41,218 nucleotides of DNA from Dehalococcoidia bacterium (GTDB taxonomy: Bacteria; Chloroflexota; Dehalococcoidia; Dehalococcoidales; JAUVZA01), in assembly GCA_030602805.1 (NCBI GenBank), contig JAUVZA010000004.1, positions 1-41,218 of the forward strand. Direction: 5' to 3'. The notes below the pieces were generated by a model. That model did no database searches. It was not told where the DNA came from and saw only the letters and a program-made list of their open reading frames with translations. The first letter of the stretch is position 1, and the number at the start of each line of letters is the position of its first letter. Position numbers and translations under genes: made by a program. Below, piece after piece: positions 1,687 through 27,307 of the stretch.

Positions 1687-2184
1687 TTGACTGTTACAGC
1701 ATTAACAGCTCACAGGGTCCTCGACGAACTCAAGAAATGTGGCATTACCCATATCGTTTGGCTTCCCAGTAGCGAGACCCGATTCATGGATGACGCCATG
1801 ATGAGCCAACACGAACTCACCCTCGTTGGGGTATGTCGTGAGGGAGAGGCTATAGCTATCGCTGCCGGTCTCATGCTAGGGAGCAAGGAACCAGTGGTGA
1901 TGCACCAAAACACTGGCTTCTTCGAGTCGGGAGATTCGGTTAGAGGTTTAGCCTTGGGTCTCCGACTTCCCCTGCTCCTACTGATCGGCTACCGAGGTTG
2001 GCGACGCGACGCCCCTATAACCGATTCTGCTGCCATCTTCACTGAGCCGATTCTGGACACTTGGGGCATTAAACACTACTTGGTGGAGACTGACCGAGAC
2101 GTGGAAAGAATCTCAATGGGCTACAAGGAAGCGCACGAGACTAACAAGCCGGTGGCGATTCTAATTGGACGGGAGTATGAATAA
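1687..2184 (+). CDS. Split ThDP-dependent 2-oxoacid decarboxylase, PYR-domain subunit (ComD-like)
   Basis: This 165-residue protein matches the pyrimidine-binding half of thiamine-diphosphate enzymes, in the size and arrangement of sulfopyruvate decarboxylase alpha (ComD) or the N-terminal half of phosphonopyruvate decarboxylase. The activating glutamate is probably Glu52 in CREGEA, followed by an A-rich helix and the QNTGF segment typical of this branch. The TTG start is set by a strong GGAGGG site about 8 bases upstream. The PP-domain partner starts two bases after the stop, so the two are surely co-translated. The substrate cannot be read from sequence: sulfopyruvate, phosphonopyruvate or another 3-substituted pyruvate are all possible. 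No coenzyme M genes are nearby. Codon use looks richer in C-ending codons than in mutS. Confidence 0.8.
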   Translation: MTVTALTAHRVLDELKKCGITHIVWLPSSETRFMDDAMMSQHELTLVGVCREGEAIAIAAGLMLGSKEPVVMHQNTGFFESGDSVRGLALGLRLPLLLLIGYRGWRRDAPITDSAAIFTEPILDTWGIKHYLVETDRDVERISMGYKEAHETNKPVAILIGREYE

Positions 2185-2186
2185 CC

Positions 2187-2759
2187 ATGATGGAAAGCTT
2201 CGAAGCCCTAAAGGTTATTTCGCAGCATCGGGGCAACGCAATTATAGTTGCTACCATGACGGCACACCTCGAATGGCCCCAGATATCTACCAATCCAGAT
2301 CTAGACCTAATGTTTAGCGGAGCCATGGGAAAAGCCTCATCTATGGGTCTGGGATTAGCTTTGGCTCAGCCTGACAAGAAGGTCATTGTGCTGGATGGTG
2401 ATGGCAGCCTCCTGATGAACCTGGGCAGTTTAGTGACCATTGCCAACATGGCTCCTCGTAACCTGATTCACTTCGTGTTCGAGAACACTGTTTACCGTAT
2501 TACTGGGGGCCAGCCCATTCCTGCGGCTGGCAAATTCAGTTTCATAGCCCTAGCTAGAGATGCAGGGTATGCCAACGTGCATGAGTTCGAGGACTTGGAG
2601 AGCTTGGAAAACAACTTAGAAACTGTCATAAACCAAGTAGGGCCTACCTTTGTCTGTCTGAAACTTCTACCAGCTACCGAGAGGCCGCCCTTCCCATTTG
2701 TTAGAACTGCCGACATAATCTCTCGATTCAGGGCAGCCTTACAGCGCTCTTCTCACTAG
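2187..2759 (+). CDS. Split ThDP-dependent 2-oxoacid decarboxylase, PP-domain subunit (ComE-like)
   Basis: This is the diphosphate-binding partner of the preceding gene, 190 residues, matching sulfopyruvate decarboxylase beta (ComE) or the C-terminal half of phosphonopyruvate decarboxylase. The ThDP/Mg motif is clear: GDGS at residues 71-74 and the closing Asn at residue 100 (FEN), a spacing usual for the family. The GAMGKASSMGLGLALA segment is the conserved glycine-rich entry to the domain. Two adjacent ATG codons (2187, 2190) could both start; the first is taken. The two subunits should form a heteromer with active sites at their interface. After the stop, the same frame continues into a short echo of the MutS tail, described separately. 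Confidence 0.8.
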   Translation: MMESFEALKVISQHRGNAIIVATMTAHLEWPQISTNPDLDLMFSGAMGKASSMGLGLALAQPDKKVIVLDGDGSLLMNLGSLVTIANMAPRNLIHFVFENTVYRITGGQPIPAAGKFSFIALARDAGYANVHEFEDLESLENNLETVINQVGPTFVCLKLLPATERPPFPFVRTADIISRFRAALQRSSH

Positions 2760-6922: not shown

Positions 6923-7078
6923 TTACTTTTTCTCGTTGCTGAGCCTTTCCCTGCCTACCAGAAATACCTTCTTCGGTATCTGCACCTTTCTCTTTCGGTA
7001 TACATCCTGCTCTATTCTTCTAGCTTCATCTACCCTCGTATTGGAATCGGCAATCACGTGGATATCGCCGCTCCTTCG
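6923..7078 (-). pseudogene. Unidentified 3' gene scrap
   Basis: A 51-codon minus-strand frame between stops at 7079-7081 and 6923-6925 reads like the end of a protein: RRSGDIHVIADSNTRVDEAR, then a charged helix and IPKKVFLVGRERLS. I cannot name the family. It is cut off where the substrate-binding-protein fragment begins on the opposite strand. Confidence 0.35.
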
Positions 7079-8140
7079 CTAGAGAGGGGCGATATGGACC
7101 TTTACATTTATAGCCTTAAAACGATAATGGCCGAGAAGTTTAGAGATACCCCAGGGGTTCATATGTATCAGGCTCCGGCTACCTCCCTTTCCCTGGTTCT
7201 TAACCCCGCCCCGGCCCCAGAAGGACAGTTGAACCCTTTCTTCATAAAAGAGGTAAGATTTGCCCTCAACTACATAATAAATCGAGAGTTTGTAGCCCAC
7301 GAGATTTTTAAAGGCATGGCGGTGCCCATGCTTGCTCACGTAGGCCCCTTTGACTATGACTATCTTAACCTTTATCCACTGGTGCGGGAATACAATATCT
7401 CTTACCAACCTGAGCTGGCTGGCAGAATAATAAAGGAAGCGATGACAAAGGCAGGAGCGCTGCTAAAGGATGGTTATTGGCACTATAACGGCAAACGGAT
7501 TGAACTTAGGTTTATTATTCGGGTCGAGGATGAACGGCGGGAAATAGGCGACCTTATTAGAGCCGAATTGGACAAGCTGGGATTTTTTGTCATCCCAATC
7601 TATCACATGTTTGCCCCAGCCATTTTTACGGTCTATATTAGTGACCCTCAGCTATTCCAGTGGCATCTTTATACCGAGGGATGGGGTAGAGGTGCTCCGG
7701 AGCGGTATGATTTTGCCTCAATTAATCACATGTATGCTCCTTGGTTAGGCAATATGCCCAGATGGCAAGAGGTAGGCTATTGGCAGTATCAGCATCCGCA
7801 ACTGGATGAGCTAGGTAAACGTATATTTATGGGTGATTTCACCACCCGAGAGGAAAGGAACCAGCTCTACTTGAAAGCTACGGAACTGGGATTAAAAGAG
7901 GCGGTGCGCCTCTGGGTGGCTACTGTAATAAATAACTTTCCGGCAAAATTAGAGCTTGAAGGTGTAACTGAGGACGTTAGCGTCGGACCCAAGGGGTTAT
8001 GGACCCTCCGAGAAGCCTATGTCCCAGGAAAGCAAGAACTAACCATTGGACACCTATGGGTATGGACAGAAAGGACGACCTGGAACCCCGTAGGCGGCTT
8101 CGGCGATGTTTACAGTGTTGATATATGGAAGAATATTGAT
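7058..8140 (+). pseudogene. Internal fragment of a peptide-type ABC substrate-binding protein (SBP family 5)
   Basis: The first 360 or so residues of a 545-residue open frame match the middle of a periplasmic oligopeptide/nickel-type substrate-binding protein. Landmarks are FFIKEVRFALNYIINREFV (the usual F.d.rvRqAl.yaidr segment), DGYWHYNGKRIELRF, and GDLIRAELDKLGFFV. A domain of FDYDYLNLYP and ERYDFASINHMYAPW follows. The N-terminal signal peptide and lipobox, and the final lobe, are missing. The GTG at 7058 has no convincing ribosome site and lies over the leftward gene scrap. The frame continues without a stop into an integrase fragment. It is almost certainly a relic, not a working binding protein. 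Confidence 0.7.
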
Positions 8141-8695
8141 TTAGGTTTAGCTTCTTTAGGCGTTTCAGCATACTTATCTGTGGTTGAGACACTATACAAG
8201 ATAAATGGAACCTATGTAATAAAGGAGCCTAAGACTTCTAGTGGCAAACGCCGAATCGCTCTCTCACCCAGTCTGGCATTAGTGCTGCGGCAACATAGAG
8301 CTGAGCAACAGACGCAACGGGCTTTACTAGGCAAGCCATTAACTGACGAGGGTTTTGTATTTGCTCACCCGGATGGTACCCTTCTGGACCCGAGCACAGT
8401 TAGCCATGCCTTTAATAAAGTTATTCGTAGGGCAGGCCTGCCCCATATACGCCTGCATGACCTGAGACACACTCATGCCACTTTGCTGTTGCAGGCAGGT
8501 GTGCATCCCAAAGTAGTCCAGGAGAGACTGGGACACTCTAGCATTAGGGTAACGCTGGATACTTATTCTCATGTAATGGGTGGATTGCAGGAAGCAGCTG
8601 CTCAACGCTTCGATGATTTCCTGTCAGCTAGAGCCGCTGAAAGCACTGATGTTGGCAAGCCAGCCGGAAACAGATATCGGGGTGAGAGGATTTGA
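8141..8695 (+). pseudogene. Tyrosine recombinase (integrase), catalytic C-terminal fragment
   Basis: From about residue 361 the open frame becomes a phage/ICE-type tyrosine integrase, in the branch with SVVETLYKINGTYVIKEPKT. The later catalytic residues are present: His467 and Arg470 (HDLRHT), His493 (LGHSS) and the nucleophile Tyr503 (DTYSHV). The N-terminal DNA-binding domains and the first catalytic Arg are gone, so it cannot recombine DNA alone. Its stop codon (8693-8695) lies inside the tRNA-Pro gene on the other strand, the usual position of an integrase beside its attachment site. It is a remnant of an integrated element. Confidence 0.8.
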
Positions 8696-8750
8696 ACCTC
8701 CGACCACCTGAACCCCATTCAGGTGCGCTACCTGGCTGCGCTACACCCCG
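8678..8750 (-). tRNA. tRNA-Pro (anticodon GGG)
   Basis: The minus strand folds into a 73-base cloverleaf. It has acceptor CGGGGTG/CACCCCG, D-stem GCGC/GCGC, anticodon stem CCTGA/TCAGG with loop ATGGGGT (anticodon GGG), T-stem GGAGG/CCTCT with loop TTCAAAT. It reads CCC codons (and CCT by wobble). CCA is not encoded. The integrase fragment ends inside it, marking it as an integration target; no second copy of its 3' end was seen in the window. Confidence 0.95.
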
Positions 8751-8767
8751 ATACTGCCTTCTGCCAT

Positions 8768-9770: not shown

Positions 9771-9799
9771 TTGACAACTGTCCGCAGATGGTTTATAAT
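9771..9799 (+). promoter_or_regulatory. Consensus sigma-70-type promoter of the XRE gene
   Basis: TTGACA (9771-9776) and TATAAT (9794-9799) with a 17-base spacer: both hexamers match the consensus exactly. Transcription would start near 9806, within the inverted repeat that follows, 45-50 bases before the XRE start codon. Confidence 0.85.
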
Positions 9800-9804
9800 T
9801 TCAA

Positions 9805-9835
9805 GTATTATGCAAGGTGAAGCGTTGCATAATAC
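9805..9835. promoter_or_regulatory. 11-bp inverted repeat, likely operator
   Basis: GTATTATGCAA (9805-9815) and TTGCATAATAC (9825-9835) are perfect inverted copies around 9 bases. The site covers the expected start of transcription of the consensus promoter and precedes the small XRE regulator, which makes it a good candidate for self-repression. A hairpin acting in the mRNA leader is the alternative. Confidence 0.65.
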
Positions 9836-9852
9836 AGCTTAAGAGAGGTATA

Positions 9853-10062
9853 ATGGAGCAACTCAGGGAAAAGGTAAAGGAGCTGCGAAGGAAAAGAGGC
9901 TGGGCACAGGAAGACATGGCACGAGAGATAGGCGTTAGCCTGTCCACCGTGCAGCGCTGGGAAAGGCAAGGTGGCAAGCCTACCCGCTTGGCTCGCCGAG
10001 AGCTTAGCAGACTGTTTAAAGAGGCAGGAATTGAATGGAATGAGACTCCGAGAGGAGACTAA
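9853..10062 (+). CDS. Small XRE-family helix-turn-helix regulator
   Basis: The 69-residue protein is little more than one Cro/C1-type helix-turn-helix: LREKVKELRRKRGWAQEDMA, then REIGVSLSTVQRWERQG, with the recognition helix in VSLSTVQRWE. The ATG at 9853 follows a GAGAGG site; an in-frame GTG at 9817 would place the start inside the inverted repeat and is rejected. It has no effector or dimerisation domain beyond the HTH. It is preceded by a perfect promoter and an 11-bp inverted repeat, so autoregulation is likely. No partner toxin or antitoxin follows; the next gene is 155 bases on and metabolic. It is probably a leftover of the mobile region or a regulator of the glycan locus. Confidence 0.85.
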   Translation: MEQLREKVKELRRKRGWAQEDMAREIGVSLSTVQRWERQGGKPTRLARRELSRLFKEAGIEWNETPRGD

Positions 10063-10217: not shown

Positions 10218-11420
10218 ATGAGAATTTTCATCCTAGGCGTTGACGGTTATTTAGGCTGGCCTTTAGCTCGGTATCTTGGTGCCCGTGGTCATGAAGTTGC
10301 CGGCTGTGATTTATTCCTCCGCCGTAAGTGGGTGGAGGAGATGGGTTCTCAATCAGCTACCCCTATCAGGACTATGGAAGAAAGGCTGGTGGCTTTTAAG
10401 GAGAACTTTGGCCGGGAGTTAATCTTCAAAGAAGGCGACCTTAGAGACTATGATTTCATTCTTCAATTCTTCAAATTTTTCCAGCCTGAGGCAATTGTGC
10501 ATCTTGGTGAGGTACCCTCAGCTCCTTATAGTATGATTGACGTTCATCACTGCGTTTTCACTCAAACAAATAACATCGCGAGCACCTTAAACATCCTCTA
10601 TGCTATGAAAGAAGTCTGTCCCCAGGCTCACCTGGTCAAGCTGGGCACCATGGGTGAGTACGGCACCCCTAATATAGATATCCCCGAAGGATTTTTCACC
10701 ATAGAATATCGCGGCCGAACCGATACCTTGCCTTTCCCTCGCCAGGCAGGAAGCTGGTATCACCAGACCAAAGTCCATGATTCCCATAATATTATGTTTG
10801 CCTGCAAAATCTGGGGATTGAGGTCGACCGACATTATGCAAGGGGTAGTTTTTGGCACCAGAATAAATGAGATGGGGGATGGGGATGATGACAGGCTGCT
10901 CACTCGATTTGACTTTGACCAGTGCTTTGGCACCGTGCTGAATAGGTATTGTGCTCAAGCTGTTATTGGTCACCCATTGTCTCCCTATGGTGCTGGTCAG
11001 CAAAAGAGAGGCTTTTTGCCACTGAGAGATTCTATACAGTGCCTGACCATTGCCATAAATAATCCTCCCCAAGAAGGTGAATACCGCGTCTTCAATCAAT
11101 TTGAAGAGGTATACTCGGTAACTCAACTCGCTCAAAAGGTGAAGAAGGTAGGAGATGAAATTGGACTAAATGTGGACATATCTAATTTAGAAAACCCTCG
11201 TATAGAGAAGGAGGAGCATTACTATAATCCTGACCACCGTCACCTTTTGGATTTGGGCTATAAACCCACTCACGATGTTGAGCAGGAGCTAAGGACAATA
11301 CTCGAAGACCTGCTCAAATACAGAAGCAGAATTGAAGAGAAAAAGGAAGCCCTAATCCCAGACGTCAGGTGGGACGGCACAAGAAGAAAATCAAGGTTCT
11401 TAACTGAGGTAAGGCGATAG
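10218..11420 (+). CDS. sqdB: UDP-sulfoquinovose synthase (SqdB/SQD1/Agl3 family)
   Basis: This 400-residue extended SDR matches the enzyme that makes UDP-sulfoquinovose from UDP-glucose and sulfite. Family-specific signatures include GTMGEYGTPNIDIPEGF, RTDTLPFPRQAGSWYHQTK, VHDSHNI and QKRGFLPLRDSIQCLTIAI. The NAD site is GVDGYLG. The catalytic residues fall at Thr144, Tyr181 and Lys185, nearly the same numbers as in plant SQD1. The product feeds sulfolipid (SQDG) in phototrophs and some other bacteria, or sulfonated N-glycans in Sulfolobus. No SqdX/SqdD-like lipid transferase is recognised nearby; the next gene is a polyprenol-phosphate-type glycosyltransferase, which favours a glycan use. 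It heads a long rightward gene run. Confidence 0.9.
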   Translation: MRIFILGVDGYLGWPLARYLGARGHEVAGCDLFLRRKWVEEMGSQSATPIRTMEERLVAFKENFGRELIFKEGDLRDYDFILQFFKFFQPEAIVHLGEVPSAPYSMIDVHHCVFTQTNNIASTLNILYAMKEVCPQAHLVKLGTMGEYGTPNIDIPEGFFTIEYRGRTDTLPFPRQAGSWYHQTKVHDSHNIMFACKIWGLRSTDIMQGVVFGTRINEMGDGDDDRLLTRFDFDQCFGTVLNRYCAQAVIGHPLSPYGAGQQKRGFLPLRDSIQCLTIAINNPPQEGEYRVFNQFEEVYSVTQLAQKVKKVGDEIGLNVDISNLENPRIEKEEHYYNPDHRHLLDLGYKPTHDVEQELRTILEDLLKYRSRIEEKKEALIPDVRWDGTRRKSRFLTEVRR

Positions 11421-11453
11421 TTAAAAGTCAGCACTCTGAGGAGCAAAGGCTAA

Positions 11454-12215
11454 ATGGAATGTTTTGAGAGCATTCAAGACTCAGAACTCTCGACTACTCA
11501 CAACTCTAAACGAAAAGTCATCGCTGCCATCCCCTGTTTCAACACCGAGCGCTCCATCAGAGATATAATCTCCAGAGCCAGAGGGTATGTTGACCGGGTC
11601 ATTGTCGTGGATGATGGCTCGCATGATGCTACTGCTGAAGCGGCGAAGGCTGCCGGTGCCCTGGTTATAAATCACGGGTTCAATAGAGGCTATGGAGAAG
11701 CTATAAAGTCTTGCTTCGAGGCAGCCAAGGCAAACACTGCCGATATTTTAGTTATCCTCGATGGTGATGGCCAACACAACCCGGATGAAATACCTCTGCT
11801 TCTATCTCCTATCGTTAACGGGGAGGCAGATTTAGTAATTGGCTCCAGGTTTATTAGTTATAACTATAACATGCCCAGCTATCGTAAGTTTGGCATTAGT
11901 GTTATCACTTTCCTTTGGAACTTCAGCTCGAGAGTGAAAGTTTCTGATACCCAGAGTGGTTTTAGGGCTTATAGCAAAAAGATATTTGAGACTTTTCCTC
12001 TTTCTGAGAAGGGGATGAGCATCAGCATTGAGACTCTCGAGAAAGCCAGAAGGAAAGGGGCTATTATCAAAGAAGTTCCCATATCCTGCCTCTACGTTCC
12101 TTCAACCCTTAATTTGGAGGCAATTAAGCACGGACTTAGCGTAGCTCTCTCGGTAGTCAGAATTCGCCTTAAGAACAGCTTATCCAGCCTGTTTGGAAAT
12201 AGAAGGGATGCTTAA
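11454..12215 (+). CDS. GT2 family glycosyltransferase, DPM1/polyprenol-phosphate type
   Basis: A 253-residue GT-A enzyme similar to dolichyl/polyprenyl-phosphate mannosyl- or glucosyltransferases. It has the N-terminal VIAAIPCFNTERSI, the nucleotide-binding VIVVDDGSHDAT, a metal-binding DGDGQH, and the DTQSGFRAY acceptor segment. There is no C-terminal transmembrane pair, so it is a soluble or peripheral DPM1-like form. It should move a sugar from a nucleotide carrier to a polyprenyl phosphate. It lies 33 bases after the sulfoquinovose synthase gene, so a sulfoquinovosyl-lipid product is conceivable. The sugar cannot be read from sequence. Confidence 0.85.
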   Translation: MECFESIQDSELSTTHNSKRKVIAAIPCFNTERSIRDIISRARGYVDRVIVVDDGSHDATAEAAKAAGALVINHGFNRGYGEAIKSCFEAAKANTADILVILDGDGQHNPDEIPLLLSPIVNGEADLVIGSRFISYNYNMPSYRKFGISVITFLWNFSSRVKVSDTQSGFRAYSKKIFETFPLSEKGMSISIETLEKARRKGAIIKEVPISCLYVPSTLNLEAIKHGLSVALSVVRIRLKNSLSSLFGNRRDA

Positions 12216-12246: not shown

Positions 12247-13641
12247 ATGAAGAGGGGATTGAAAGTAGTCTTAATAAACCCTCCCCAGTTTACTCGATAT
12301 CCTCAACCTCCCATGGGGATAGCCTCTATAGCTGCGGTTCTGGAAAGAGAGGGGTACCAACTGGCTGTGGTTGATGCCAATGCTTTAGGGCTTGAGCCAG
12401 AAGATATAACCTCACAGGTAAGTGATGCTGACATCGTTGGGCTTACGGCAATGACCCCTACCCTAAATGCAGCTATAAACATCGCTCGCCGGCTGAAGCA
12501 AGCCAACCCCAACCTAGTGCTTATTATAGGCGGTCCTCATGTCACACTACTCCCCGAGGAGACATTAGCTAATGCTCCCGAAATAGACATCGTGGTTAGA
12601 GGGGAGGGCGAAGAAACCATCATTGAGCTACTTCGGGCTGTGGAAGGTAATGACTCACTGGATGGTATCCCAAGCATTAGCTACAGAAGGAATGGTAATA
12701 TGGTCAGCAATCCCTCGGCGTCTAGCAAGGTGGATTTGGATTCCCTGCCCTTTCTTGCCTATCATCTACTCCCATGGCAGAGATACAAACCCCACCCTCC
12801 CCATGGACGAGCCTCTCCCTTTGCCGCCATCATAACCAGTCGAGGCTGTCCCTACCAATGTGCCTATTGCTCAAAACCTGTCTTTGGGAGTAAATTTAGA
12901 GGACAAAGCTCGGAAAGGGTGGTTGACGAGGTTGCTTATCATAGGAGGAAGTTTGGCATAAAGGAAATCGCCTTTTATGATGATGTCTTCACCTTGAATA
13001 AAAAAAGAGCCTATGCCATAGCCGACGGCATAATGAAACAGGGACTAAGGATAGACTGGACATGCGAGACGAGGGTCGATTTAGTAGATAAAGAGTTATT
13101 GCGCCACATGAAGCAGGCGGGCTGCTATGCTATTGCCTATGGCATCGAATCCGCCTCGCACGAGATACTGAACACTCTAAAAAAGGGCATAAGTCTAGAC
13201 CAAGTAGAAGAGGCGGTCCGCATCACCCGAGAGGTGGGCTTGCAAACCATAGGCTATTTTATGCTCGGCTCCCCGGGTGAGACTCCTGAGACTATTCGCA
13301 AGACGATTGACCTTGCCAAGAAGCTGAAACTCGATTTTGCCCAATTTTCTGTCACCATACCTTTTCCTGGTACCAAACTGTATGATTTATATCGGGAGCA
13401 AACCTCCGAAAGTATACCTTGGGAAAGTTTTGTCTATGATAAGGCGGGGGGAGAGGTAACCCCTATGTTTGAAAATAGCCAGCTCAGCAGAAGTGACCTT
13501 CAACGGTGGATAAGGCAAGGCTACAAAGAATTCTACTTACGCCCATCTTACCTCTGGCAACGAATTCGCAAGATTAGCTCTATAGGAGATTTGAAGGTCA
13601 ACCTTAAAGGCTTATCTATGCTTTTGGGGAATATAAAATGA
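12247..13641 (+). CDS. B12-binding radical SAM protein (class B architecture)
   Basis: A 464-residue protein with an N-terminal cobalamin-binding-type Rossmann domain (LINPPQFTRYPQPPMGIASI; GGPHVTLLPEETL; VRGEGEETI). A radical SAM domain follows, with the cluster motif CPYQCAYC (Cys201, Cys205, Cys208) and the family's YGIESASHEIL and GYFMLGSPGET segments. The DxHxxG cobalamin motif is not obvious, so B12 may be bound base-off or not at all. Such enzymes methylate unreactive carbons or rearrange lipids and sugars. Within a glycan run it may alter a sugar or the lipid carrier. The reaction is unknown. Confidence 0.85.
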   Translation: MKRGLKVVLINPPQFTRYPQPPMGIASIAAVLEREGYQLAVVDANALGLEPEDITSQVSDADIVGLTAMTPTLNAAINIARRLKQANPNLVLIIGGPHVTLLPEETLANAPEIDIVVRGEGEETIIELLRAVEGNDSLDGIPSISYRRNGNMVSNPSASSKVDLDSLPFLAYHLLPWQRYKPHPPHGRASPFAAIITSRGCPYQCAYCSKPVFGSKFRGQSSERVVDEVAYHRRKFGIKEIAFYDDVFTLNKKRAYAIADGIMKQGLRIDWTCETRVDLVDKELLRHMKQAGCYAIAYGIESASHEILNTLKKGISLDQVEEAVRITREVGLQTIGYFMLGSPGETPETIRKTIDLAKKLKLDFAQFSVTIPFPGTKLYDLYREQTSESIPWESFVYDKAGGEVTPMFENSQLSRSDLQRWIRQGYKEFYLRPSYLWQRIRKISSIGDLKVNLKGLSMLLGNIK

Positions 13642-13680: not shown

Positions 13681-14481
13681 ATGCTCAAAATTTCGATTAT
13701 AATACCTAGTTATAATGCGTCTGACTTTATTGAGGAAACAATTCAAAGCATAGTTAATCAAAATTATCCAAACCTTGAATGTATAGTAATAGATGGTGGG
13801 TCAAATGATGGCACACTTGATATATTGAACAAATATAAAGGGCAGATAATGTGGATATCCGAAAAGGATAGGGGTCAATCGGATGCAATTAACAAAGGTC
13901 TCAAACTAGCCAGCGGAGATATTATTACCTATATAAATGCTGATGATGTCTACGAGAGAGGTTGCTTTCAAAAGGTAACTGCTTTTTTTGAGAAAAGCCC
14001 CACGGTTAAGTGGGTATATGGAAAGTGTAGAATTATAAACAAGGACGGGGCAGAAATACGTAGACCAATAACTTGGTACAAAAACTTTTGGCAAAAGAGA
14101 TACAGCTATAATAGGCTTTTGATTCTGGACTTTATTGCTCAACCCGCAACGTTCTGGCGCAAAGAATTAACCGATGAGATAGGACTATTTGATGTCAATC
14201 AGCACTTAGCAATGGAATATGACTACTGGTTAAGAACTGGAGCTAACTATAAACCAGGATTTATTGACGATTATCTGGCAAGCTTTCGCGTGCACCGTCA
14301 TTCAAGGAGCTCTGTGAATTATTCAAAGGCAGCTAGAGAAGCGCTAGATGTCGCTAAGAGTTACGCTAGGGTGGAAAAGCGAGATTTCCTAATCCCGCTG
14401 CAGTACCTGAATTATTGGGTTGTTATCTCTACTTACTCTATCTTAAGGATTGTCTCCCAGCTAACGAATAAGTTAGAATGA
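13681..14481 (+). CDS. GT2 family glycosyltransferase
   Basis: A 266-residue GT-A transferase of the WcaA type. It shows KISIIIPSYNASDFIEETI, then VIDGGSNDGTLDIL, SEKDRGQSDAINKG and the metal-binding INADD. Further on, QPATFWRKE and the MEYDYWLR acceptor-side motif are typical of polysaccharide transferases. It follows the radical SAM gene by 39 bases with a GAGGAG ribosome site. The donor and acceptor sugars are unknown; neighbouring gmd-fcl make GDP-fucose available. Confidence 0.9.
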   Translation: MLKISIIIPSYNASDFIEETIQSIVNQNYPNLECIVIDGGSNDGTLDILNKYKGQIMWISEKDRGQSDAINKGLKLASGDIITYINADDVYERGCFQKVTAFFEKSPTVKWVYGKCRIINKDGAEIRRPITWYKNFWQKRYSYNRLLILDFIAQPATFWRKELTDEIGLFDVNQHLAMEYDYWLRTGANYKPGFIDDYLASFRVHRHSRSSVNYSKAAREALDVAKSYARVEKRDFLIPLQYLNYWVVISTYSILRIVSQLTNKLE

Positions 14482-14567: not shown

Positions 14568-16636
<2,069 letters not shown>

Positions 16637-16711: not shown

Positions 16712-17404
16712 GTGAGAATGCTTCCCAGATTGAAGCTGTCTCCAAAATTAATAAAATTCGCCTATCGTTTCGTCGATATAGAGGCGTCAGGGGAAATAGA
16801 CCGCCCTGTAACACGTGTAATTGAATATTCCTTTGCCATCCAGAAATTAGGCTCAACACAAGGGAAGAAGGTACTTGATATCGGTTGTACTAGTAGGTGG
16901 AATCTCCTTCCTGCTACTTTGGTTGGGCTAGGATGGGAAGTATATGGCATAGACACCAGAGAATTAAAATTTAGGCACCACAACTTTCACTTTGTGGGTG
17001 AGGATATCAGGAATACAAGTTTTCCCGATAATTTTTTCGATTGCATATGCGCTATCTCCACCATTGAACATATAGGACTGAGCGGAAGATTTGGAGTTAC
17101 CAAAGCTGACCCTCAAGGAGATGTTAAAGCTATCAAGGAAGTACAGAGGATTATTCGCCCTAGTGGCACCTTTCTGGTTACTGTGCCCTATGGTCAGCGA
17201 GCGCTCATTCACCCCCTCCACAAGGTTTATGATAAAGTTCAGTTAAAAGAGTTATTCGGTGCTTGGAGAACCAAGCAAGAAATCTACTATGCTCGTGATG
17301 AGGAGGGTTATTGGGAAATTGTGCCTGAGGAAGTAGCAGCATTAATAGACAATAAAACTGGTGAGGAGGCTATAGCTCTATTAGAGCTGCTTTTGCTGAA
17401 ATAG
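16712..17404 (+). CDS. Class I SAM-dependent methyltransferase
   Basis: A 230-residue methyltransferase with motif I VLDIGCTSRWNLLP, an acidic ribose-binding Asp in VYGIDTRE, motif II in FDCICAISTIEHIG, and the IIRPSGTFLVTVPYG segment after it. It belongs to the broad Methyltransf_11 group often found in glycan loci, where it may cap or decorate a sugar. GTG at 16712 and ATG at 16718 are both well placed after GAGGAGG; the first is used. The 45-base gap to the next gene suggests co-transcription. The substrate is unknown. Confidence 0.87.
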   Translation: MRMLPRLKLSPKLIKFAYRFVDIEASGEIDRPVTRVIEYSFAIQKLGSTQGKKVLDIGCTSRWNLLPATLVGLGWEVYGIDTRELKFRHHNFHFVGEDIRNTSFPDNFFDCICAISTIEHIGLSGRFGVTKADPQGDVKAIKEVQRIIRPSGTFLVTVPYGQRALIHPLHKVYDKVQLKELFGAWRTKQEIYYARDEEGYWEIVPEEVAALIDNKTGEEAIALLELLLLK

Positions 17405-17449: not shown

Positions 17450-18616
17450 ATGAGAACGGTTATAGTCAGGTCATCCCTCGAAACGCTCAGCCCCAGAGCA
17501 CTTAAAAACGCACAAACACTGGCTTCTGGAGGATACGAGGTCACAGTATTGTCCTGGGATAGGGAGGATAAAAACCCTAAAGTAGAGCGTAAAGATGGCA
17601 AAGATGGCTACGAAGCACACAGGTTTAAATTTAAAGCACCTTATGGACCAAAAGTGCTCCTTTATCTACCTATCTGGTGGTGTCTTGAATTTTGGTGGTT
17701 ACTAAGAAAGCGCTGGGATATAGTGCATGCCATGGACTTTGACACTGTGGTTCCAGCAGTGATTGCCGCTAGGATAAAAAGGAAGCCGGTGATTTACGAA
17801 TTAGGTGATATTTATGAAGATATGATACCACTACCTCAAATGTTGAGAAAGATTTGTGCGTATATAGATAAAATTTTTATGCGTCTGGCAAATGCAGTAA
17901 TTATTGCTCATGAGGCACAGGTAAAAGAGCTGAGCGGAATTCCCAACAAGAATGTAGTGGCGATTTATAACTCGCCCCCCGATTTTTTTAAAAAAATAAA
18001 TAGTGCCATCCAGAAAGACGATAAGTTTACGATATTCTATGCTGGTAAACTTTATAAAGCACGTCGGTTGAATTTAGATAAGGTATTTCAAGCCATCAAA
18101 AATATCAATATAGTGAGATTAATTATCACTGGATATGGTGATCAAGTTGACGAAATTAACACATGGGCTGATGAATTCCCCGATAAAGTGGAGTTTATCG
18201 GCAGGCTCAGCTATACTGAGGTTCTGGAGAGAACTATGATGGCTGACCTCCTAATTAACCCTCGCGAACCCACTGTGCATAATAGGTGTACCATCCCCAA
18301 TAAGCCATTTGAAGCCATGATGTGTGGTAAACCTATTCTGGTAAGCAAGGGCACAGCTATGGCAGACATGGTAGAGGAGGAAAATTGTGGCTTGGTAGTG
18401 GACTGTAATACCGCTGAAAAAATAAGGGAGGCTATAATAAGGCTAAAAGAGAGTCCTGAGCTGCGCCAGCAACTTGGAGCCAATGGCCGAAGAGCCTACG
18501 AGCAGCGATATAGTTGGGCAATTATGGAGCAACGCCTGCTGGCTCTTTACCGGGAGATAGGTAAAAAGTTAAAAGTTAATCCCCTTCTGAAAGGACCGCC
18601 AAATGACCCCGCCTAA
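17450..18616 (+). CDS. GT4 family glycosyltransferase
   Basis: A 388-residue GT-B enzyme. The N-terminal domain has RALKNAQTLASGGYEVTVLS and the WDIVHAMDFDTV acceptor-side segment; the donor domain has FTIFYAGKLYKARRL. It ends with the E-x7-E-like region PNKPFEAMMCGKPILVSKGT and a typical RYSWAIMEQRLLALY tail. It overlaps the next gene by 14 bases, so the two are coupled. The donor sugar is unknown. Confidence 0.9.
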   Translation: MRTVIVRSSLETLSPRALKNAQTLASGGYEVTVLSWDREDKNPKVERKDGKDGYEAHRFKFKAPYGPKVLLYLPIWWCLEFWWLLRKRWDIVHAMDFDTVVPAVIAARIKRKPVIYELGDIYEDMIPLPQMLRKICAYIDKIFMRLANAVIIAHEAQVKELSGIPNKNVVAIYNSPPDFFKKINSAIQKDDKFTIFYAGKLYKARRLNLDKVFQAIKNINIVRLIITGYGDQVDEINTWADEFPDKVEFIGRLSYTEVLERTMMADLLINPREPTVHNRCTIPNKPFEAMMCGKPILVSKGTAMADMVEEENCGLVVDCNTAEKIREAIIRLKESPELRQQLGANGRRAYEQRYSWAIMEQRLLALYREIGKKLKVNPLLKGPPNDPA

Positions 18617-20885
18617 CGATTGGGAAATTAAGAAATGCCTCAGTATAGTCATCGCTATCCTTTTAGCCTCGCTTGGTCTAATAGGGTTAGCTGCCTTAGG
18701 CTATGATATTCCTGGTTTAAGGCAAATTGTCGGCTTTATATACCTCACCTTTGTCCCCGGTCTCCTTATCCTCAGGATTCTCAGAATCCACGAAATAGGG
18801 GCAGTAAAAACCCTTCTGTATTCGGTTGGGTTAAGCCTTGCCTTTGTAATGTTTACCGGCTTATTTATGAATTCTATATTTCCCTATATTGGAATTTCAA
18901 AGCCGCTATCGGTCTTTCCTTTGGTAGCTACCTTAACCGCCTTTATAGCCATACTCTGCAGCATAGCCTACAAACGGGATAGGTATTCCCCAGCTTCAAC
19001 CACTGTGGAGAGAAAAGGGGGATTATTCTCACCCTCTTTATTCTTGATTTTACTTCCTCTGGTGGCAATTTTCGGGACTTATTTAATTAATTTTCATGAA
19101 AATAATATCCTTCTAATGACACTGATAGTTATTATTTCTGTTGTTATAGCTTTAGCTGCTTTTGGCAAGTTCTTTCACCCGGGCACATATGCACTGGCAA
19201 TAGTAGCCATTGCTATTGGTATTTTATACTCAAGGACAATGATATCTATGTATGTGGTGGGACAGGACATTCATCGCGAGTTCTATTTTCAGGGGCTGGT
19301 ATTAACCAACGGCTACTGGGATGCCACCATCCCCGGAACTTTGAACGCTATGCTCAGTATTGTAATGCTTTGTCCAATATATTCCATCATGCTAAATATG
19401 GACAGCGTGTGGATAGCTAAGGTTATATACCCTCTCTTTTTCAGCCTCATACCTTTAGCACTGTTTGAGGTCTACAGGGAGCAAGTTGATTCCAGGAAAG
19501 CCTTCCTGGCAGCCTTTTTCTTCATGTCAATGATTGTTTTCTTTACCTCAATCGCTACAAATCTCAGAACGGGGATTGCGGAGCTGTTTTTGGCTCTGCT
19601 GATATTGCTAATGGTGGACAGAGGGAGAACCTCAGTCCAGAAGGCAGCCCTGGCTATCATCTTTATTATGGCACTTACCGTCTCCCATTATGCATTGGCA
19701 TATATTGGTATCGCCCTTTTTATCTTGGGCTGGCTTTTATTAGTTCTTGCTAAGAACAGAATAGGAAGAGGTGTGTGGGGACGATTGGGCGCCGGGTTTA
19801 GTATCTCAGGGGCAAACACGGGCAGGGCGAATCCGACCCCCCAGACAGCCACCCCACGACCTACTATACTCAATGGTAATCTTGTTTGCCTGTTTCTGGT
19901 TTTCACCCTAGCTTGGTATATGTATACCGCCTCGGCAGCACCATTTAATGCCATTGTAGGGATTGGACATCATGTGTATAGTAGCCTCGCTGAATTCTTT
20001 TCTCCGATGGCGAGGGAAGCTATTGTAGGAACCGCTATTGGACTTGACTGGGCATCAGCATCAACATTGGGGAAAGCCTTCAGGGTGATACTATACCTTA
20101 CTCAACTGTTCATTATTGTTGGTCTGGCTAAGCTCATTCTTAAGCCCGAGGGTTTAAGGTTCAAGGCAGAGTATATTGCGCTAGCTGTGGTAAGTGGTCT
20201 AGGTCTATTAGTGGTCATGGTCTTGCCTTACGCATTTTTCGGTGTGACCAGGTTTTATCACATTACTCTAATTATCTTATCACCATTCTGTATCTTAGGT
20301 GGTGAAGTTATCTGGAAAGGTGGCCGGAGACTATTTAAATCTGTTTCATCACGCTCAAAGGGCAAATGGGTACGTCTATCTCCAGCCCAAAATAACCCAG
20401 CCTATATCAAGTTCCTGGTCTTAGCAGTATTAATCCCTTATTTCCTCTTTAACACAGGTTTTGTTTTTGAAATCACTAAGACCGAAACCAGGGGTGAGTT
20501 CCCAGCTTCAGAAGTTTTAAGCCACTATAGGCTGGATACATATGACTTTAACCAAATGGAAGCCGCTGGTGCTCAATGGTTATCAACTGTATCTGATGAT
20601 AGGTTCAAAATATACGCTGATGTGTATGGTGGAATAGTGATAAACAGTCAGCTTTATGGTCGAGCCAAGACATTCCCAGCAGATATCGAAAAAGTGCCAC
20701 AGAACTCATATATATACTTGAGGACATGGAACATAGACAGGCAAGAAGTAGTGATAGGCGTTCAGCACCAACCTGGAATATTAAAGCATGTCAGCCTTGA
20801 AGACAAACCGGCATTGCTTGATATAATTGATAGCGGGAATAAAATTTATGCTAATGGCGGTTCACAGGTATTTGTGCCAAAATAG
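18603..20885 (+). CDS. Polytopic membrane protein, DUF2206 family
   Basis: A 760-residue membrane protein with at least a dozen hydrophobic segments over residues about 10-610 and a polar C-terminal domain that ends IYANGGSQVFVPK, the closing signature of DUF2206. A Glu/Asp-bearing first loop is seen near YVVGQDIHREFYF, which resembles the catalytic loop of GT-C glycosyltransferases or O-antigen polymerase-type proteins. It could be the polymerase, ligase or a lipid-linked sugar transferase of the locus; that is inference. Residues of about 390-422 are an odd Gly/Pro/Thr-rich insertion in a cytoplasmic loop, described separately. A weak GACAAC/GTTGTC hairpin follows the stop. Confidence 0.82.
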   Translation: MTPPNDWEIKKCLSIVIAILLASLGLIGLAALGYDIPGLRQIVGFIYLTFVPGLLILRILRIHEIGAVKTLLYSVGLSLAFVMFTGLFMNSIFPYIGISKPLSVFPLVATLTAFIAILCSIAYKRDRYSPASTTVERKGGLFSPSLFLILLPLVAIFGTYLINFHENNILLMTLIVIISVVIALAAFGKFFHPGTYALAIVAIAIGILYSRTMISMYVVGQDIHREFYFQGLVLTNGYWDATIPGTLNAMLSIVMLCPIYSIMLNMDSVWIAKVIYPLFFSLIPLALFEVYREQVDSRKAFLAAFFFMSMIVFFTSIATNLRTGIAELFLALLILLMVDRGRTSVQKAALAIIFIMALTVSHYALAYIGIALFILGWLLLVLAKNRIGRGVWGRLGAGFSISGANTGRANPTPQTATPRPTILNGNLVCLFLVFTLAWYMYTASAAPFNAIVGIGHHVYSSLAEFFSPMAREAIVGTAIGLDWASASTLGKAFRVILYLTQLFIIVGLAKLILKPEGLRFKAEYIALAVVSGLGLLVVMVLPYAFFGVTRFYHITLIILSPFCILGGEVIWKGGRRLFKSVSSRSKGKWVRLSPAQNNPAYIKFLVLAVLIPYFLFNTGFVFEITKTETRGEFPASEVLSHYRLDTYDFNQMEAAGAQWLSTVSDDRFKIYADVYGGIVINSQLYGRAKTFPADIEKVPQNSYIYLRTWNIDRQEVVIGVQHQPGILKHVSLEDKPALLDIIDSGNKIYANGGSQVFVPK
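19775..19870. repeat. Probable dispersed repeat inserted in frame in the DUF2206 gene
   Basis: The stretch encodes RLGAGFSISGANTGRANPT and PQTATPRPTI, low-complexity sequence unlike the surrounding helices. At DNA level it is flanked by GTGGGG (19775-19780) and CCCCAC (19852-19857) and is rich in G- and C-runs. It resembles the short mobile palindromic repeats common in some anaerobe genomes, and falls in a loop between membrane segments so the frame survives. No second copy is in the window. Confidence 0.45.
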
Positions 20886-21053: not shown

Positions 21054-22202
21054 ATGAAAACTACAAAACTTAAGATTCTAAGAAAAGAGGAATTAGAGGG
21101 TAAGGTCTGCGTTATTGTCGGGACAAGGCCGGGGATTATCAAAATGAGCCCAATAATAAGGAGGCTAGAGGAAACAAGGAGCAACTATTTCGTGGTTCAT
21201 ACCGGCCAGCATTATTCCCACCTGATGGACAGGAAATTCTTTGACGACATAAACTTACCAGAACCGAAATATAGGCTGAACACAGTGAAAAGATACCAAA
21301 CCCATGGCGGACAAACGGCGGAAATGCTTAAAGGTATAGAAAGGGCACTACTTGAGGAAAAGCCCAGAATAGTGCTAGCTGTTGGTGATGCCAATACCAA
21401 TCTTGCCGGAGCTTTGGCTGCCAGAAAATTGCAAATCGAGCTGGGACATGTCGAAGCTGGATTAAGGAGCGATGATTGGCAAATGCCAGAGGAGCATAAC
21501 AGGGTGATGATAGACCATATATCCGAGCTTTTGTTCGCCCCCACAGAGAGGGAAAAGGAGAATTTGATCAAGGATAATGTTAAAGGGGAGATATTTGTCG
21601 TTGGAAATACTATCGTAGATGCTGTTCATCAAAATTTGGAGGTAGCTAAGGTGAGGAGTTCTATTTTGGATAGGCTAAATTTAAGACCAAACGATTATTT
21701 TGTACTTACCCTCCATAGAGAGGAGAATGTAGATTATAGAGAAAACCTTGAGGGGATAGTGGAGAGCTTGAGGGTTATTAGTCAGAAATATGGTAACCAG
21801 ATAATCTATCCTATTCACCCGAGAACAAAGAAACGGTTGAAAGAGTTCGATTTAGAAGGAAAGGCAAGGTCCACTAAGAACTTAAGACTCATCGAGCCCC
21901 TCGGTTACTTAGATTTTCTGCTCCTGTTATCAAATGCCAGTTTGGCTTTAACCGATAGCGGTGGTATTCAAGAAGAAAGCTGCATATTGAAAGTGCCTTG
22001 CATAACATTAAGGAAAAGCACTGAACGACCTCAAACGGTTGAAGTTGGTGCTAACTTTGTCGCTGGTCTGAAGACAAGCAATATTTTACAAGGGGCAGCC
22101 AAAATGCTGAAAGCCAAAAGGGAATGGGTAAATCCCTTTGGCGATGGTCAAGCAGCAAAGAGGATAATTAATATAGTAGAAAAAGAGAGCCCAATTAAAT
22201 AA
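21054..22202 (+). CDS. wecB: UDP-N-acetylglucosamine 2-epimerase (non-hydrolysing)
   Basis: WecB interconverts UDP-GlcNAc and UDP-ManNAc. The 382-residue protein shows the opening VIVGTRPGIIKMSP, FVVHTGQHYSHLMD, VGDANTN (Asp), HVEAGLRS (Glu) and MPEEHNR (Glu). It also has TLHREENVD (catalytic His), TDSGGIQEE, and STERPQTV near the end. UDP-ManNAc is normally oxidised by WecC to UDP-ManNAcA; the only dehydrogenase in this window, at 35286-35873, is truncated, so ManNAc may be used as such or the oxidation lies elsewhere. It follows the glycosyltransferase stub and precedes a GT4 gene by 13 bases. Confidence 0.95.
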   Translation: MKTTKLKILRKEELEGKVCVIVGTRPGIIKMSPIIRRLEETRSNYFVVHTGQHYSHLMDRKFFDDINLPEPKYRLNTVKRYQTHGGQTAEMLKGIERALLEEKPRIVLAVGDANTNLAGALAARKLQIELGHVEAGLRSDDWQMPEEHNRVMIDHISELLFAPTEREKENLIKDNVKGEIFVVGNTIVDAVHQNLEVAKVRSSILDRLNLRPNDYFVLTLHREENVDYRENLEGIVESLRVISQKYGNQIIYPIHPRTKKRLKEFDLEGKARSTKNLRLIEPLGYLDFLLLLSNASLALTDSGGIQEESCILKVPCITLRKSTERPQTVEVGANFVAGLKTSNILQGAAKMLKAKREWVNPFGDGQAAKRIINIVEKESPIK

Positions 22203-22215: not shown

Positions 22216-23313
22216 TTGAATCTACTGATAATGACAGGGGCATTCCCCCCGGATATGGGGGGGGTACCAATCTATTCCGACATCTTAGCTCGTTACCTGG
22301 CAAGGAAACCAGACATCAAAAAGATTATTATTTTGACCAGGTTCACTAAAAGAGCCCCTATCATTGAGAATAGAAATAAAATTAAAATCCTCAGGCTTCT
22401 TCCCCCTTTAATAGAGCCAAAAGTTTTCTTTCGTAAATTGATAATTGCCATTCCTCTTATCATCAATTCAGTAATTCTTTTCTTTGCTATTCACTTATCT
22501 AGAATAGACATCGTTCACATTATCTCTCCTTTCACCTTCTGGATACCGAGGCTATATAGAGTTCCCGTAATTGTAGACATCCAAGGCTACTATGAAAATG
22601 AGAGATATGAAAAATACAAAATAATGAGGATTTCCCCCGATGTGGTGCTCTCTATTTCAAAAAATGTTTCAACAAAACTATATTTGAAGAAGGGGAGAAC
22701 CAGAATAAGATATATTCCCATGGCATTTGAACCACTGAAGAAGGTGAAGCCGGAATATATACAAAAGACTAAGGAGAAGTATGGCATCCCACCGGGTAGC
22801 CCCTACCTCTGCTTTGCCTGTCCTATCCGGGCATTCAAAGGGATTTACGAACTGATAGACGCCTTTGACATCTTCTTAAGAGCTCACCCCGAGTATTACT
22901 TAATAATTGCCGGTAGAAATATAGAGGGAGAAAGGTTTGAAAAGAGAATAAAAGACAACGAGCATATAATTTATGTGGGTGGGGTGCCGCATGATGAAGC
23001 ATTGGCTATTATCCAAGGGTCTGAGATGTTGGTTCAGCCATCAGAGGAGGCAGATGCCCAAGGCTATCTCACCAGAAATTGTCTTGACGCCATTGCTTTA
23101 GGGACAAAGGTTATCCTGCCACCGAATGTGCAAGAAGCCGGAAAATATTGCCCTGATTTTGTTTTAAATGAAGTCACACCGCAAGCAATTGCCGATAAAA
23201 TAGAGGAAGTTTTGAGGCTAGATAAAAAGCCAGAATATCCTTTTGAGGAGCTTGATGCCGAGAAGGTGGTGAATGAGATTTACCAACTCTATAAAGAGTT
23301 AGTGGCAAAATAG
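22216..23313 (+). CDS. GT4 family glycosyltransferase
   Basis: A 365-residue GT-B enzyme. Landmarks are GAFPPDMGGVPIYSDILARY, DIVHIISPFTFWIPRLY, the donor-side FACPIRAFKGIYELIDAF, and IVQ-like surface helices. The usual C-terminal E-x7-E region reads EEADAQGYLTRNCLDAIALG, so the first Glu of the motif is shifted or altered. The TTG start follows GGTAGGT. It ends the rightward run; the 182 bases before the convergent gene at 24731-23496 hold no gene or clear terminator. Confidence 0.85.
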   Translation: MNLLIMTGAFPPDMGGVPIYSDILARYLARKPDIKKIIILTRFTKRAPIIENRNKIKILRLLPPLIEPKVFFRKLIIAIPLIINSVILFFAIHLSRIDIVHIISPFTFWIPRLYRVPVIVDIQGYYENERYEKYKIMRISPDVVLSISKNVSTKLYLKKGRTRIRYIPMAFEPLKKVKPEYIQKTKEKYGIPPGSPYLCFACPIRAFKGIYELIDAFDIFLRAHPEYYLIIAGRNIEGERFEKRIKDNEHIIYVGGVPHDEALAIIQGSEMLVQPSEEADAQGYLTRNCLDAIALGTKVILPPNVQEAGKYCPDFVLNEVTPQAIADKIEEVLRLDKKPEYPFEELDAEKVVNEIYQLYKELVAK

Positions 23314-23495: not shown

Positions 23496-24731
23496 TTAGC
23501 CAAGATTTCTGTTCTCGACTCGAGAAAAGTAAGTTAACTGGTCATCAATTATATCTTCCAGCTTATGAGAAACCCTGAATCCGAGCTGTTGAATCTTCCG
23601 GCAATCGCTAAACAAAATGGGGACATCTACTGGTCTAAACCTCTCTGGATTAAACTGGATAGGGATTTTCCCTTTATCAGTATAGACCCAGATACCTTTG
23701 TCCTCCAGGCTAAATTCCAATTCCTCTTGCAGCATAGCTTTGTCAACCCTAGTCTTGACGAACTTCAGCCCAAATAGCTCGGAATGGTCTCTCTGGGTAG
23801 GCTCTTCTATCACCTTCCCTCGGCGCATACTTTCAATCTTTTCCACCCCCCAGCCTCCACTTTCAAGGCTAAGTAGGATATAGCTCAGCACCGAGTTCGT
23901 CCTCATCGAACCCTGGACATAGACCTCCCCGTATTTCCCCTTCTCGGCGAGGAGGCAGTATCCTTCCACTATATCAGAAACATGCGACCAATCTCTAAAT
24001 GTGTTTACATTACCGAGCAAAATTTTGTCAGCCTCACCAAGCTTTAACTTCATCACCTGACTTGTTATTGCTGAAGTAACAAAGACAGAACCTCTACCCG
24101 CTCCCTCGTGGTTAAACGCCCGGGAAACAATTGTCCTTAGCCCATAAGAGTAATGGAAACCCCTCATCAAGTGCTCGCCATGCACCTTACTGACAGCATA
24201 AGGTGAAAGCGGTCTCAATGGATTGCCTTCGTTTATCGGCAGTTCGGGGAACCGTTCCGGAGGCGGAAATATATTCCCATATTTTTTAATGGCTAACCGG
24301 TATTGATTTTGGGTGTAAAATACTAAGCCGTATTCTTCACTGGAACCAGCGAAAACTATTATTGGGTCCAACTGTTGCAGTCTCACCGACTCAAGCAAAT
24401 TAGCCGTTCCAATGGTGTTTGTCTCCAGAGTGGCTAGTGGGTTACTGAAAGAGGGCGGCACAAAAGACTGGGCAGCCAGGTGAAAAATTATATCTGGATT
24501 AGACTCCCTCAGGGCAGAACCGACCGCCGTGATATCAGTTATGTCCCCTTCCATTAGCTTTACTTCATTGAAGATTCCTTTGTCTACCAAGTTCTTTGGT
24601 CTTGAACCATCGGCTCTCCTTCTCACTAGACCAAAGACGGTTGCCTTTCTATCCAGTAGGAATTTCGCCAGGTGCGAGCCAACAAAGCCACTAATCCCGG
24701 TTATCAACACACTCTTATTCTCCAATGCCAC
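23496..24731 (-). CDS. Extended SDR, GDP-mannose 4,6-dehydratase-like
   Basis: A 411-residue nucleotide-sugar dehydratase/epimerase. The NAD(P) site is TGISGFVGSHLA. The catalytic pair is SSEEYG and YAVSK. FNHEGAGRGSVFVTSAI and FRDWSHVSDIVEGY match the Gmd/RMD branch. It is longer than Gmd: an insert of about 25 residues after SSEEYGL and a C-terminal extension with IWVYTDKG. It may be a GDP-sugar dehydratase with a special product, or work with the C-methyltransferase just upstream. The GTG start is fixed by GGAGG six bases before it. It is the last gene of the leftward run. Confidence 0.85.
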   Translation of the reverse strand: MALENKSVLITGISGFVGSHLAKFLLDRKATVFGLVRRRADGSRPKNLVDKGIFNEVKLMEGDITDITAVGSALRESNPDIIFHLAAQSFVPPSFSNPLATLETNTIGTANLLESVRLQQLDPIIVFAGSSEEYGLVFYTQNQYRLAIKKYGNIFPPPERFPELPINEGNPLRPLSPYAVSKVHGEHLMRGFHYSYGLRTIVSRAFNHEGAGRGSVFVTSAITSQVMKLKLGEADKILLGNVNTFRDWSHVSDIVEGYCLLAEKGKYGEVYVQGSMRTNSVLSYILLSLESGGWGVEKIESMRRGKVIEEPTQRDHSELFGLKFVKTRVDKAMLQEELEFSLEDKGIWVYTDKGKIPIQFNPERFRPVDVPILFSDCRKIQQLGFRVSHKLEDIIDDQLTYFSRVENRNLG

Positions 24732-24801
24732 TTTTAACCTCCTTCACCTAGTTTTTTTCCCTTTGAGACGGTGACAAAATCCCGGACAGCTTACACTGTC
24801 A

Positions 24802-26073: not shown

Positions 26074-27261
26074 TTATTCTATATCATCAACAATGGCTCG
26101 CAATTTTGGCGCTAGCACCTGCGGTTCAAACATCTTACGTCCCTGAAGTATATTCTCACATTGTCGCTTATAGCGAACAAGAGGGAATTCTTTTAGGATA
26201 GACAGCATTACAGAGCGCATTTCCTGGTAACTATCGCACAGATATCCGATATCACCCATTTTCCCGAAGCAATACTCTATATACGGATTCCTGAGGTAGA
26301 TACCGGGTTTAACATAGGACAGGGCATCAAGAAACGAGGTGCTGGCTCCAAAATTATATATTTTAGGACTTGCCATTACCACCGCATAGGTTAAACTAGA
26401 TGCCCGCCGGGCATACTCTTCAATAGATAGCGGGGTGTAAGACACACCCTTAACCGCATCTTGCCCCGATATAGGATAACCGCCCCGCTGCTTCAAAAAA
26501 CCTACCATGACAAACTCGCCAAGCTTCTGGCTGACCTCCCTTTGAATTTCTGCGGCAAGACGGGAGAAAACATCAAATCCCCCTTTGGTACTCACCCCGA
26601 TATAGCCGAAGCGAACTATTTGACCACAGCCTATATCAATTGAAGTGTTGTTGTGAGTCCAAAAGCAAGGAATATCTAATGTCCGAAAATTAGGTGCTAC
26701 GTTGGGCATAACATCGAGGAGAGCACGATAGATTGACCCGCTAAGTGCTATGTACCGCAACCGTTTGGGATGGGGCAGTCTGAGCACCTGACGAAGGCTA
26801 AACAGCCATCTCCAGGGCTTTCTGGGTTGTCTATCCGATATCGAATTTAGTATCCCATGAGGTATAACCAGTATCGGTACTCGCCTGTCCTTCAAGTGCA
26901 TCAACACCTTAAGAAAAAACAAGCCGGTACTTGTAATCGAGCAGAGGATGAGAAACCGAAGGTTAGGAGTAGAAGCCACACGGAGCACATAACGACACCA
27001 GGTCAGTTCACTACCCAGACGTTTTCTAGGGCTGATTTCCAGCGGCGGAATAACAATTTCTTGCCACTTGACTCGCCCTTCATCTACTTCTACTTCTCGG
27101 GCTAAGACCTTACCCACCCATACCAGATGTTCTCTCTCTCCCATGAAGGTTACTTGGGCATCTGGATAGGCTAGTAAAACGGTATATAGAAGCGCTGCGT
27201 TTAACCTGGAATGTTCAAACCCAAAACACTGTGGTTCGCACAAGATGACTTGTTCGTTCAT
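26074..27261 (-). CDS. Putative GT-B glycosyltransferase
   Basis: A 395-residue protein with a weak GT-B look: LCEPQCFGFEHSRLNAALLY at the start and PHGILNSISDR in the first domain. IVRFGYIGVSTKGGFDVF at the second domain is like donor-site loops. It ends with SFLDALSYVKPGIYLRNPYI, resembling the GT4 C-terminal glycine region. I do not recognise a defined family. The ATG at 27261 has a GGTGA site five bases before it; an upstream TTG at 27300 has none, so the shorter form is preferred. It lies directly before the C-methyltransferase gene. Confidence 0.6.
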   Translation of the reverse strand: MNEQVILCEPQCFGFEHSRLNAALLYTVLLAYPDAQVTFMGEREHLVWVGKVLAREVEVDEGRVKWQEIVIPPLEISPRKRLGSELTWCRYVLRVASTPNLRFLILCSITSTGLFFLKVLMHLKDRRVPILVIPHGILNSISDRQPRKPWRWLFSLRQVLRLPHPKRLRYIALSGSIYRALLDVMPNVAPNFRTLDIPCFWTHNNTSIDIGCGQIVRFGYIGVSTKGGFDVFSRLAAEIQREVSQKLGEFVMVGFLKQRGGYPISGQDAVKGVSYTPLSIEEYARRASSLTYAVVMASPKIYNFGASTSFLDALSYVKPGIYLRNPYIEYCFGKMGDIGYLCDSYQEMRSVMLSILKEFPLVRYKRQCENILQGRKMFEPQVLAPKLRAIVDDIE

Positions 27262-27307
27262 ATTTTCACCGGCTTTCGGTATAACGAGGTCGTTTAGCAA
27301 CTCAAAC

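Follow-up and report, generated by a model that had tools for sequence, protein, structure and literature searches.

Gene organization of the locus

The window, the whole 41,218-nt stretch of DNA analysed here, comes as a contig from a draft genome of 1.5 Mb, 93% complete. It contains a 26-kb glycan island in which a plus-strand run of genes, reaching to 23313, meets a minus-strand block (36795–23496). An SQD1/SqdB-like gene and a glycosyltransferase gene stand together at the head of the island, the GC content of which is 0.37–0.45 as against 0.47–0.50 for the flanking genes. The features are:

9771–9799, plus strand: putative sigma-70-type promoter, TTGACA-17-TATAAT, identified by consensus match only (12/12 positions), before the HTH and sqdB-like genes
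9817–10062, plus: small HTH_3 protein (PF01381, 7e-10), upstream of the sqdB-like gene
10218–11420, plus: SQD1/SqdB-family SDR, Pro100 variant, 400 aa (from PDB and NCBIfam matches, alignment and model)
10506–10526, plus: codons 97–103 of that gene (GEVPSAP), with Val99-Pro100 in place of the Gln-Arg of SQD1 and Agl3
11454–12215, plus: GT2, putative PpgS/AglJ/DPM1-like polyprenyl-phosphate glycosyltransferase, 253 aa (PF00535, 1.8e-23)
12247–13641, plus: B12-binding radical SAM protein; in two genomes of the order its relative is found near the DPM1-like GT2
13681–14481, plus: GT2 glycosyltransferase
14568–15659, plus: GDP-mannose 4,6-dehydratase, Gmd (TIGR01472, 525.6 bits, cut-off 415)
15656–16636, plus: GDP-L-fucose-synthase-like SDR (NF047922, 291 bits, under the equivalog cut-off of 500)
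16712–17404, plus: methyltransferase
17450–18616, plus: GT4 glycosyltransferase
18603–20885, plus: DUF2206 predicted membrane protein (PF09971, 2.8e-59)
21054–22202, plus: UDP-GlcNAc 2-epimerase WecB (TIGR00236, 416 bits, cut-off 210)
22216–23313, plus: GT4 glycosyltransferase
23496–36795, minus: second, convergent half of the island, with SDRs, a C-methyltransferase, GT4s, a nucleotidyltransferase, a flippase, a truncated UDP-sugar dehydrogenase and a 4-epimerase-like SDR
33771–35066, minus: Wzx-type flippase (PF01943, 3e-29)

An earlier note on this DNA had described a locus with a flippase and many transferases, and the flippase and several GT2 and GT4 genes were indeed found. The DUF2206 protein may have a GT-C-like role; a search of the PDB gave no sequence relative for it. 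The gene at 26074–27300 (minus) encodes a 408-aa protein that matched no Pfam or NCBIfam model. A 241-nt sequence is directly repeated, at 89% identity, at 29326–29566 and 32834–33074; one copy lies over the beginning of a GT4 gene, the other between two other genes. The truncated UDP-sugar dehydrogenase (35286–35873, minus) consists of the N-terminal 195 aa only.

Contamination of the contig was considered and is unlikely. For its argJ the best matches come from the same order (69, 61, and 58%), from a member of the class (60%) and from a Chloroflexi MAG (58%), and other named genomes reach at most 50%.

An SQD1-like protein with Pro in place of an Arg essential in Agl3

A phmmer search of the PDB with the product of 10218–11420 aligned residues 2–394 with 1i24 at E 1.5e-128. 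Both SQD1 entries, 1qrr and 1i24, matched at ∼1e-128, and the next best match was at 1e-6. The protein is 47% identical to Arabidopsis SQD1. Its AlphaFold model (pLDDT 90) has a TM-score of 0.92 to 1qrr, compared with 0.70 or less for other SDRs, which shows the full-length SQD1 fold. It resembles SQD1 (1qrr/1i24/1i2b) also in length and in the GxxGxxG, TMGEYG, YHxxK and NPR motifs, but differs in having Val99-Pro100 where SQD1 has Gln100-Arg101 and in lying outside any sulfolipid context. The score against the NCBIfam model for UDP-sulfoquinovose synthase, NF041015, was 580.7 bits (580.5 in a repeat), which narrowly passes the cut-off of 575. Since the sqdB genes of Alicyclobacillus and Sinorhizobium meliloti, found in sulfolipid-type settings, score below this cut-off, it discriminates poorly. 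At E 1e-40 the model found matches in only 2 of 14 control genomes, Sulfolobus acidocaldarius and Synechococcus.

The ORF is intact and conserved at invariant columns, and the Thr144, Tyr181, and Lys185 that the earlier note named in its clear SqdB homologue are exactly at those positions. Thr, Tyr, and Lys form the general SDR triad and are no marker of sulfoquinovose synthases. The active-site Tyr-xxx-Lys, Thr, Met, Glu, Tyr, and His are all retained, a set that is partly generic to SDRs.

A change that the earlier note missed lies in the motif EQR-SAPYS of known UDP-sulfoquinovose synthases, which reads EVP-SAPYS in the window protein. In Agl3, the UDP-sulfoquinovose synthase for the N-glycan of S. 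acidocaldarius, substitution of Ala for His95, Arg101, Met145, Tyr182, or Lys186 gives inactive enzyme, while T144A is fully active (PMC4388408). The primer printed for the Arg mutant encodes Ala-Glu-Gln-[Ala]-Ser-Ala-Pro (PMC4388408), and the essential Arg is therefore that of EQR-SAP (AEQRSAP). The window protein keeps all the other residues reported to be needed in Agl3 (His95, Met145, Glu147, Tyr148, Tyr182, and Lys186), but the Arg expected of a UDP-sulfoquinovose synthase is Pro100. This Arg may be needed for sulfoquinovose synthesis, as one mutant study, that of Agl3, suggests.

Distribution and genomic settings of the Pro form

Among 91 sampled family members, position 101 was Arg in 36 and Pro in 55, with nothing else seen. 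Arg is carried by SQD1, Agl3, Thermoplasmata, Acidobacteria, and Alicyclobacillus, in several of which sqdB precedes a GT4 gene. At ∼36–39% identity to the window protein it is still present in alphaproteobacterial sqdB-sqdD operons, and in the plasmid-borne sqdB of Marinovum, Loktanella, and S. meliloti, where the neighbor is a glycogenin-like transferase or another transferase. The Arg was seen in every sulfolipid-type sqdB gene that was checked, in sqdB-sqdD and sqdB-GT4 loci alike. The sampled Pro forms span some ten phyla and mostly belong to glycan loci. They include the window protein, every bacterial relative at 61–79% identity, Bathyarchaeota and some Anaerolineae; two haloarchaea, Natrinema and Haladaptatus, have Pro as well. 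On trees built without that column, which were quick, unrooted and made without bootstraps, the trait changes only three times. The Arg-type Thermoplasmata fall closest to, or nested beside, the Pro-type Bathyarchaeota, so that Arg and Pro enzymes may make a common product, and one Pro gene (L061) is placed within the Arg clade.

The earlier note expected a bacterial polymer with sulfoquinovose to be unusual. SQD1-family genes in bacterial glycan loci are not, as dozens exist. The polysaccharide-like loci that house the Pro-type genes are variable and include flippases, GT2, GT4, Wzi and sulfotransferases, and also NeuB with a cytidylyltransferase and a DegT aminotransferase. As genes in the fetched loci were called mechanically as longest ORFs, neighbor counts are approximate. 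Of 40 dereplicated Pro loci, 11 had a GT2-DUF2304 neighbor, as did one of the 23 Arg loci, by a weak, short partial match (one-sided Fisher test, p = 0.022, kinship ignored). The Natrinema gene (35–41% identity) is also beside GT2-DUF2304. Members of one SDR subfamily, mostly 42–70% identical, stand beside Pro-type genes in nine loci, L061 among them, and such a partner would fit a keto-sugar in need of a reductase or epimerase. The relatives in a Nitrospirae genome (L037, 79%), a Deltaproteobacteria genome (L002, 74%) and NaphS2 (L023, 69%) belong to the same subfamily, with Pro and similar settings. Pro-type relatives often adjoin GT2-DUF2304 or the SDR module, however, and the window locus has neither.

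In three Anaerolineae loci (L018, L022, L038) the Pro-type gene is part of a conserved operon and not of a glycan locus, together with genes for prephenate dehydratase, a semialdehyde dehydrogenase, histidinol dehydrogenase and an APH-type kinase.

The adjacent glycosyltransferase

The GT2 ORF starts 33 nt past the end of the SqdB-like gene. Its product has archaeal dolichol-phosphate-mannose synthase 5mlz as best PDB match (4.3e-16), which, with the GT2 domain, bears out the DPM1-like transferase that the earlier note placed directly after sqdB. The best NCBIfam matches are PpgS (Rv3631) and AglJ, at 123 bits and far below the cut-offs of 370 and 325, so the protein probably belongs to the PpgS/AglJ/DPM1 group by best match but not by equivalog score. 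Unlike the recurrent neighbor described above, it has no fused DUF2304. A pairing akin to GT2-DUF2304 is that of mycobacterial PpgS, whose partner is a small membrane protein (PMC3485146).

Within this order, sequence comparison shows no conservation of the sqdB-DPM1 pair that was proposed, and the idea is rejected there; the related GT2-DUF2304 pairing recurs elsewhere. Close relatives of the DPM1-like GT2 (56–61% identity, three genomes of the order) occur without sqdB. Relatives of this GT2 and of the B12-radical-SAM gene lie near one another in two genomes, at 56% and 60% with two other genes between them (L137) and at 47% and 57% as adjacent genes (L140). As neither includes sqdB, the latter appears to be a later addition, placed upstream of a unit that was already there.

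Sulfolipid, N-glycan and sulfite-supply genes in the host genome

No close relative of the sqdB-like gene was found in 100 relatives, and a relative at E 1e-60 was present in only 9 of 392 other genomes of the class. The genome was found to contain seven GT4s, of which the window holds four. The seven are 21–33% identical to SqdX-like GT4s and include no close relative of these or of the GT4s that come after sqdB in Alicyclobacillus; nor was an SqdD gene found adjacent to the SqdB-like gene. These results are for a genome that is 93% complete. The analogy with the N-glycan role of Agl3 lacks its oligosaccharyltransferase. The two proteins share family and, probably, glycan use, but the genome had no match to PF02516 (STT3), for which four archaeal controls gave matches. 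An initiating transferase of the PF02397 type was not found in the genome either.

We recognised no sulfite source of the APS/PAPS-reductase type in the genome; its sole PAPS_reduct-family match is unlike CysH judged by sequence and neighbors.

A proposed function and its alternatives

Because of the position of the gene in the island and the lack of a close SqdX relative, we favor a glycan role over a sulfolipid role, as far as sequence comparison can indicate. Sulfoquinovose as the product has against it the loss of the Arg, a residue consistently kept by enzymes of known product or sulfolipid context, and in its favor the other retained residues and the overall similarity. The earlier reading, a possible sulfonated glycan in place of a lipid, stands in part: there is no close SqdX relative and the subfamily occupies surface-glycan loci across phyla, but sulfoquinovose itself is not secured with the essential Arg replaced by Pro. 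We would class the protein with the SQD1-family SDRs, in a subfamily of its own, and would not call it a UDP-sulfoquinovose synthase; the variant appears new and the island is of an ordinary surface-glycan type.

We lean, with modest confidence, towards a distinct Pro-subfamily SDR that supplies a C6-modified or 6-deoxy sugar, which need not be UDP-sulfoquinovose, for a Wzx-exported surface glycan. The protein would be an NAD-dependent nucleotide-sugar SDR with the SQD1 fold. It would most likely oxidise an NDP-hexose at C4 and eliminate water across C5–C6, as in SQD1 and Agl3, and its pocket, without the Gln-Arg pair, may then yield a C6-modified or 6-deoxy activated sugar. The later steps would presumably run in this order: the adjacent PpgS/AglJ-like GT2 possibly loads the sugar on polyprenyl phosphate, the island transferases use it, and the surface glycan is exported by the Wzx flippase. 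Points that weigh against this reading are the retention of every other residue needed in Agl3, the NF041015 cut-off just passed, the closeness of Thermoplasmata and Bathyarchaeota in the tree, and the lack of both recurrent partners in the window.

That the enzyme is instead a true UDP-sulfoquinovose synthase, its Pro form binding sulfite by other residues and the island making a sulfoquinovose-bearing surface glycan, is a serious possibility if a somewhat doubtful one. It accords with the 47% identity to SQD1, the retained catalytic residues and the passed NCBIfam cut-off, with a glycan locus in a genome where no close SqdX relative was found, and with the closeness of Arg-type Thermoplasmata to Pro-type Bathyarchaeota. 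It has to contend with an Arg that is essential in Agl3 but Pro across the whole subfamily, with the sulfite supply described above, and with the organisms reported to make a sulfoquinovose glycan, as no Pro-type enzyme was found there. The glycan of Haloferax volcanii contains methyl-sulfoquinovose, and this was considered as proof for the Pro enzymes. It was rejected, since no SQD1-family member was found in H. volcanii at E 1e-40 and its methyl-sulfoquinovose therefore does not vouch for the Pro form.

It is improbable that the gene serves SQDG-like sulfolipid synthesis, its lipid glycosyltransferase being encoded in another part of the genome and unrecognised. The genome is only 93% complete, which leaves some room for such a gene, and one GT4 (L109; genome G000, contig C79) aligns over its full length, at 25–27%, with GT4s encoded after sqdB in Alicyclobacillus; but this similarity is at the general GT4 level, L109 scores higher to other GT4 models, no GT4 gene adjoins the sqdB-like gene, and all sulfolipid-type sqdB genes checked carry Arg. 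Least probable of all is that the island is decaying and the gene a recent acquisition without function or use, an idea that draws on the truncated dehydrogenase (195 aa), the 241-nt repeat, a nearby integrase-SBP fusion ORF and the lack of a close sqdB relative among 100 relatives, but sits poorly with an intact ORF, conserved invariant columns and a perfect consensus promoter upstream.

For the preferred reading of a distinct Pro subfamily, it is conceivable, and only a little short of probable, that a widespread branch of the SQD1 family provides many bacterial phyla and some archaea with a different C6-modified nucleotide sugar for their surface glycans. Where its members are named at all, they are annotated as UDP-sulfoquinovose synthase. 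If the subfamily does not make sulfoquinovose, automatic annotation is wrong in many genomes and another activated sugar is to be identified. If it does, sulfonated surface glycans would be common in bacteria of sediment, soil, and groundwater, a hidden source of sulfosugars besides photosynthetic lipids.

Three side observations may be added. At 7058–8695 (plus) a single ORF joins part of an extracellular SBP_bac_5 solute-binding protein to the catalytic domain of a phage integrase and extends into tRNA-Pro (8676–8751, minus), an arrangement that integration and deletion might leave. Two adjoining genes at 1687–2759 (plus) resemble those for sulfopyruvate decarboxylase subunits alpha and beta, with scores under the NCBIfam cut-offs. 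On a Rhodobacteraceae plasmid (L135, 5340–7764), an Arg-type sqdB-like gene is followed by genes for a sulfotransferase and a PAPS reductase, the latter a possible source of sulfite.
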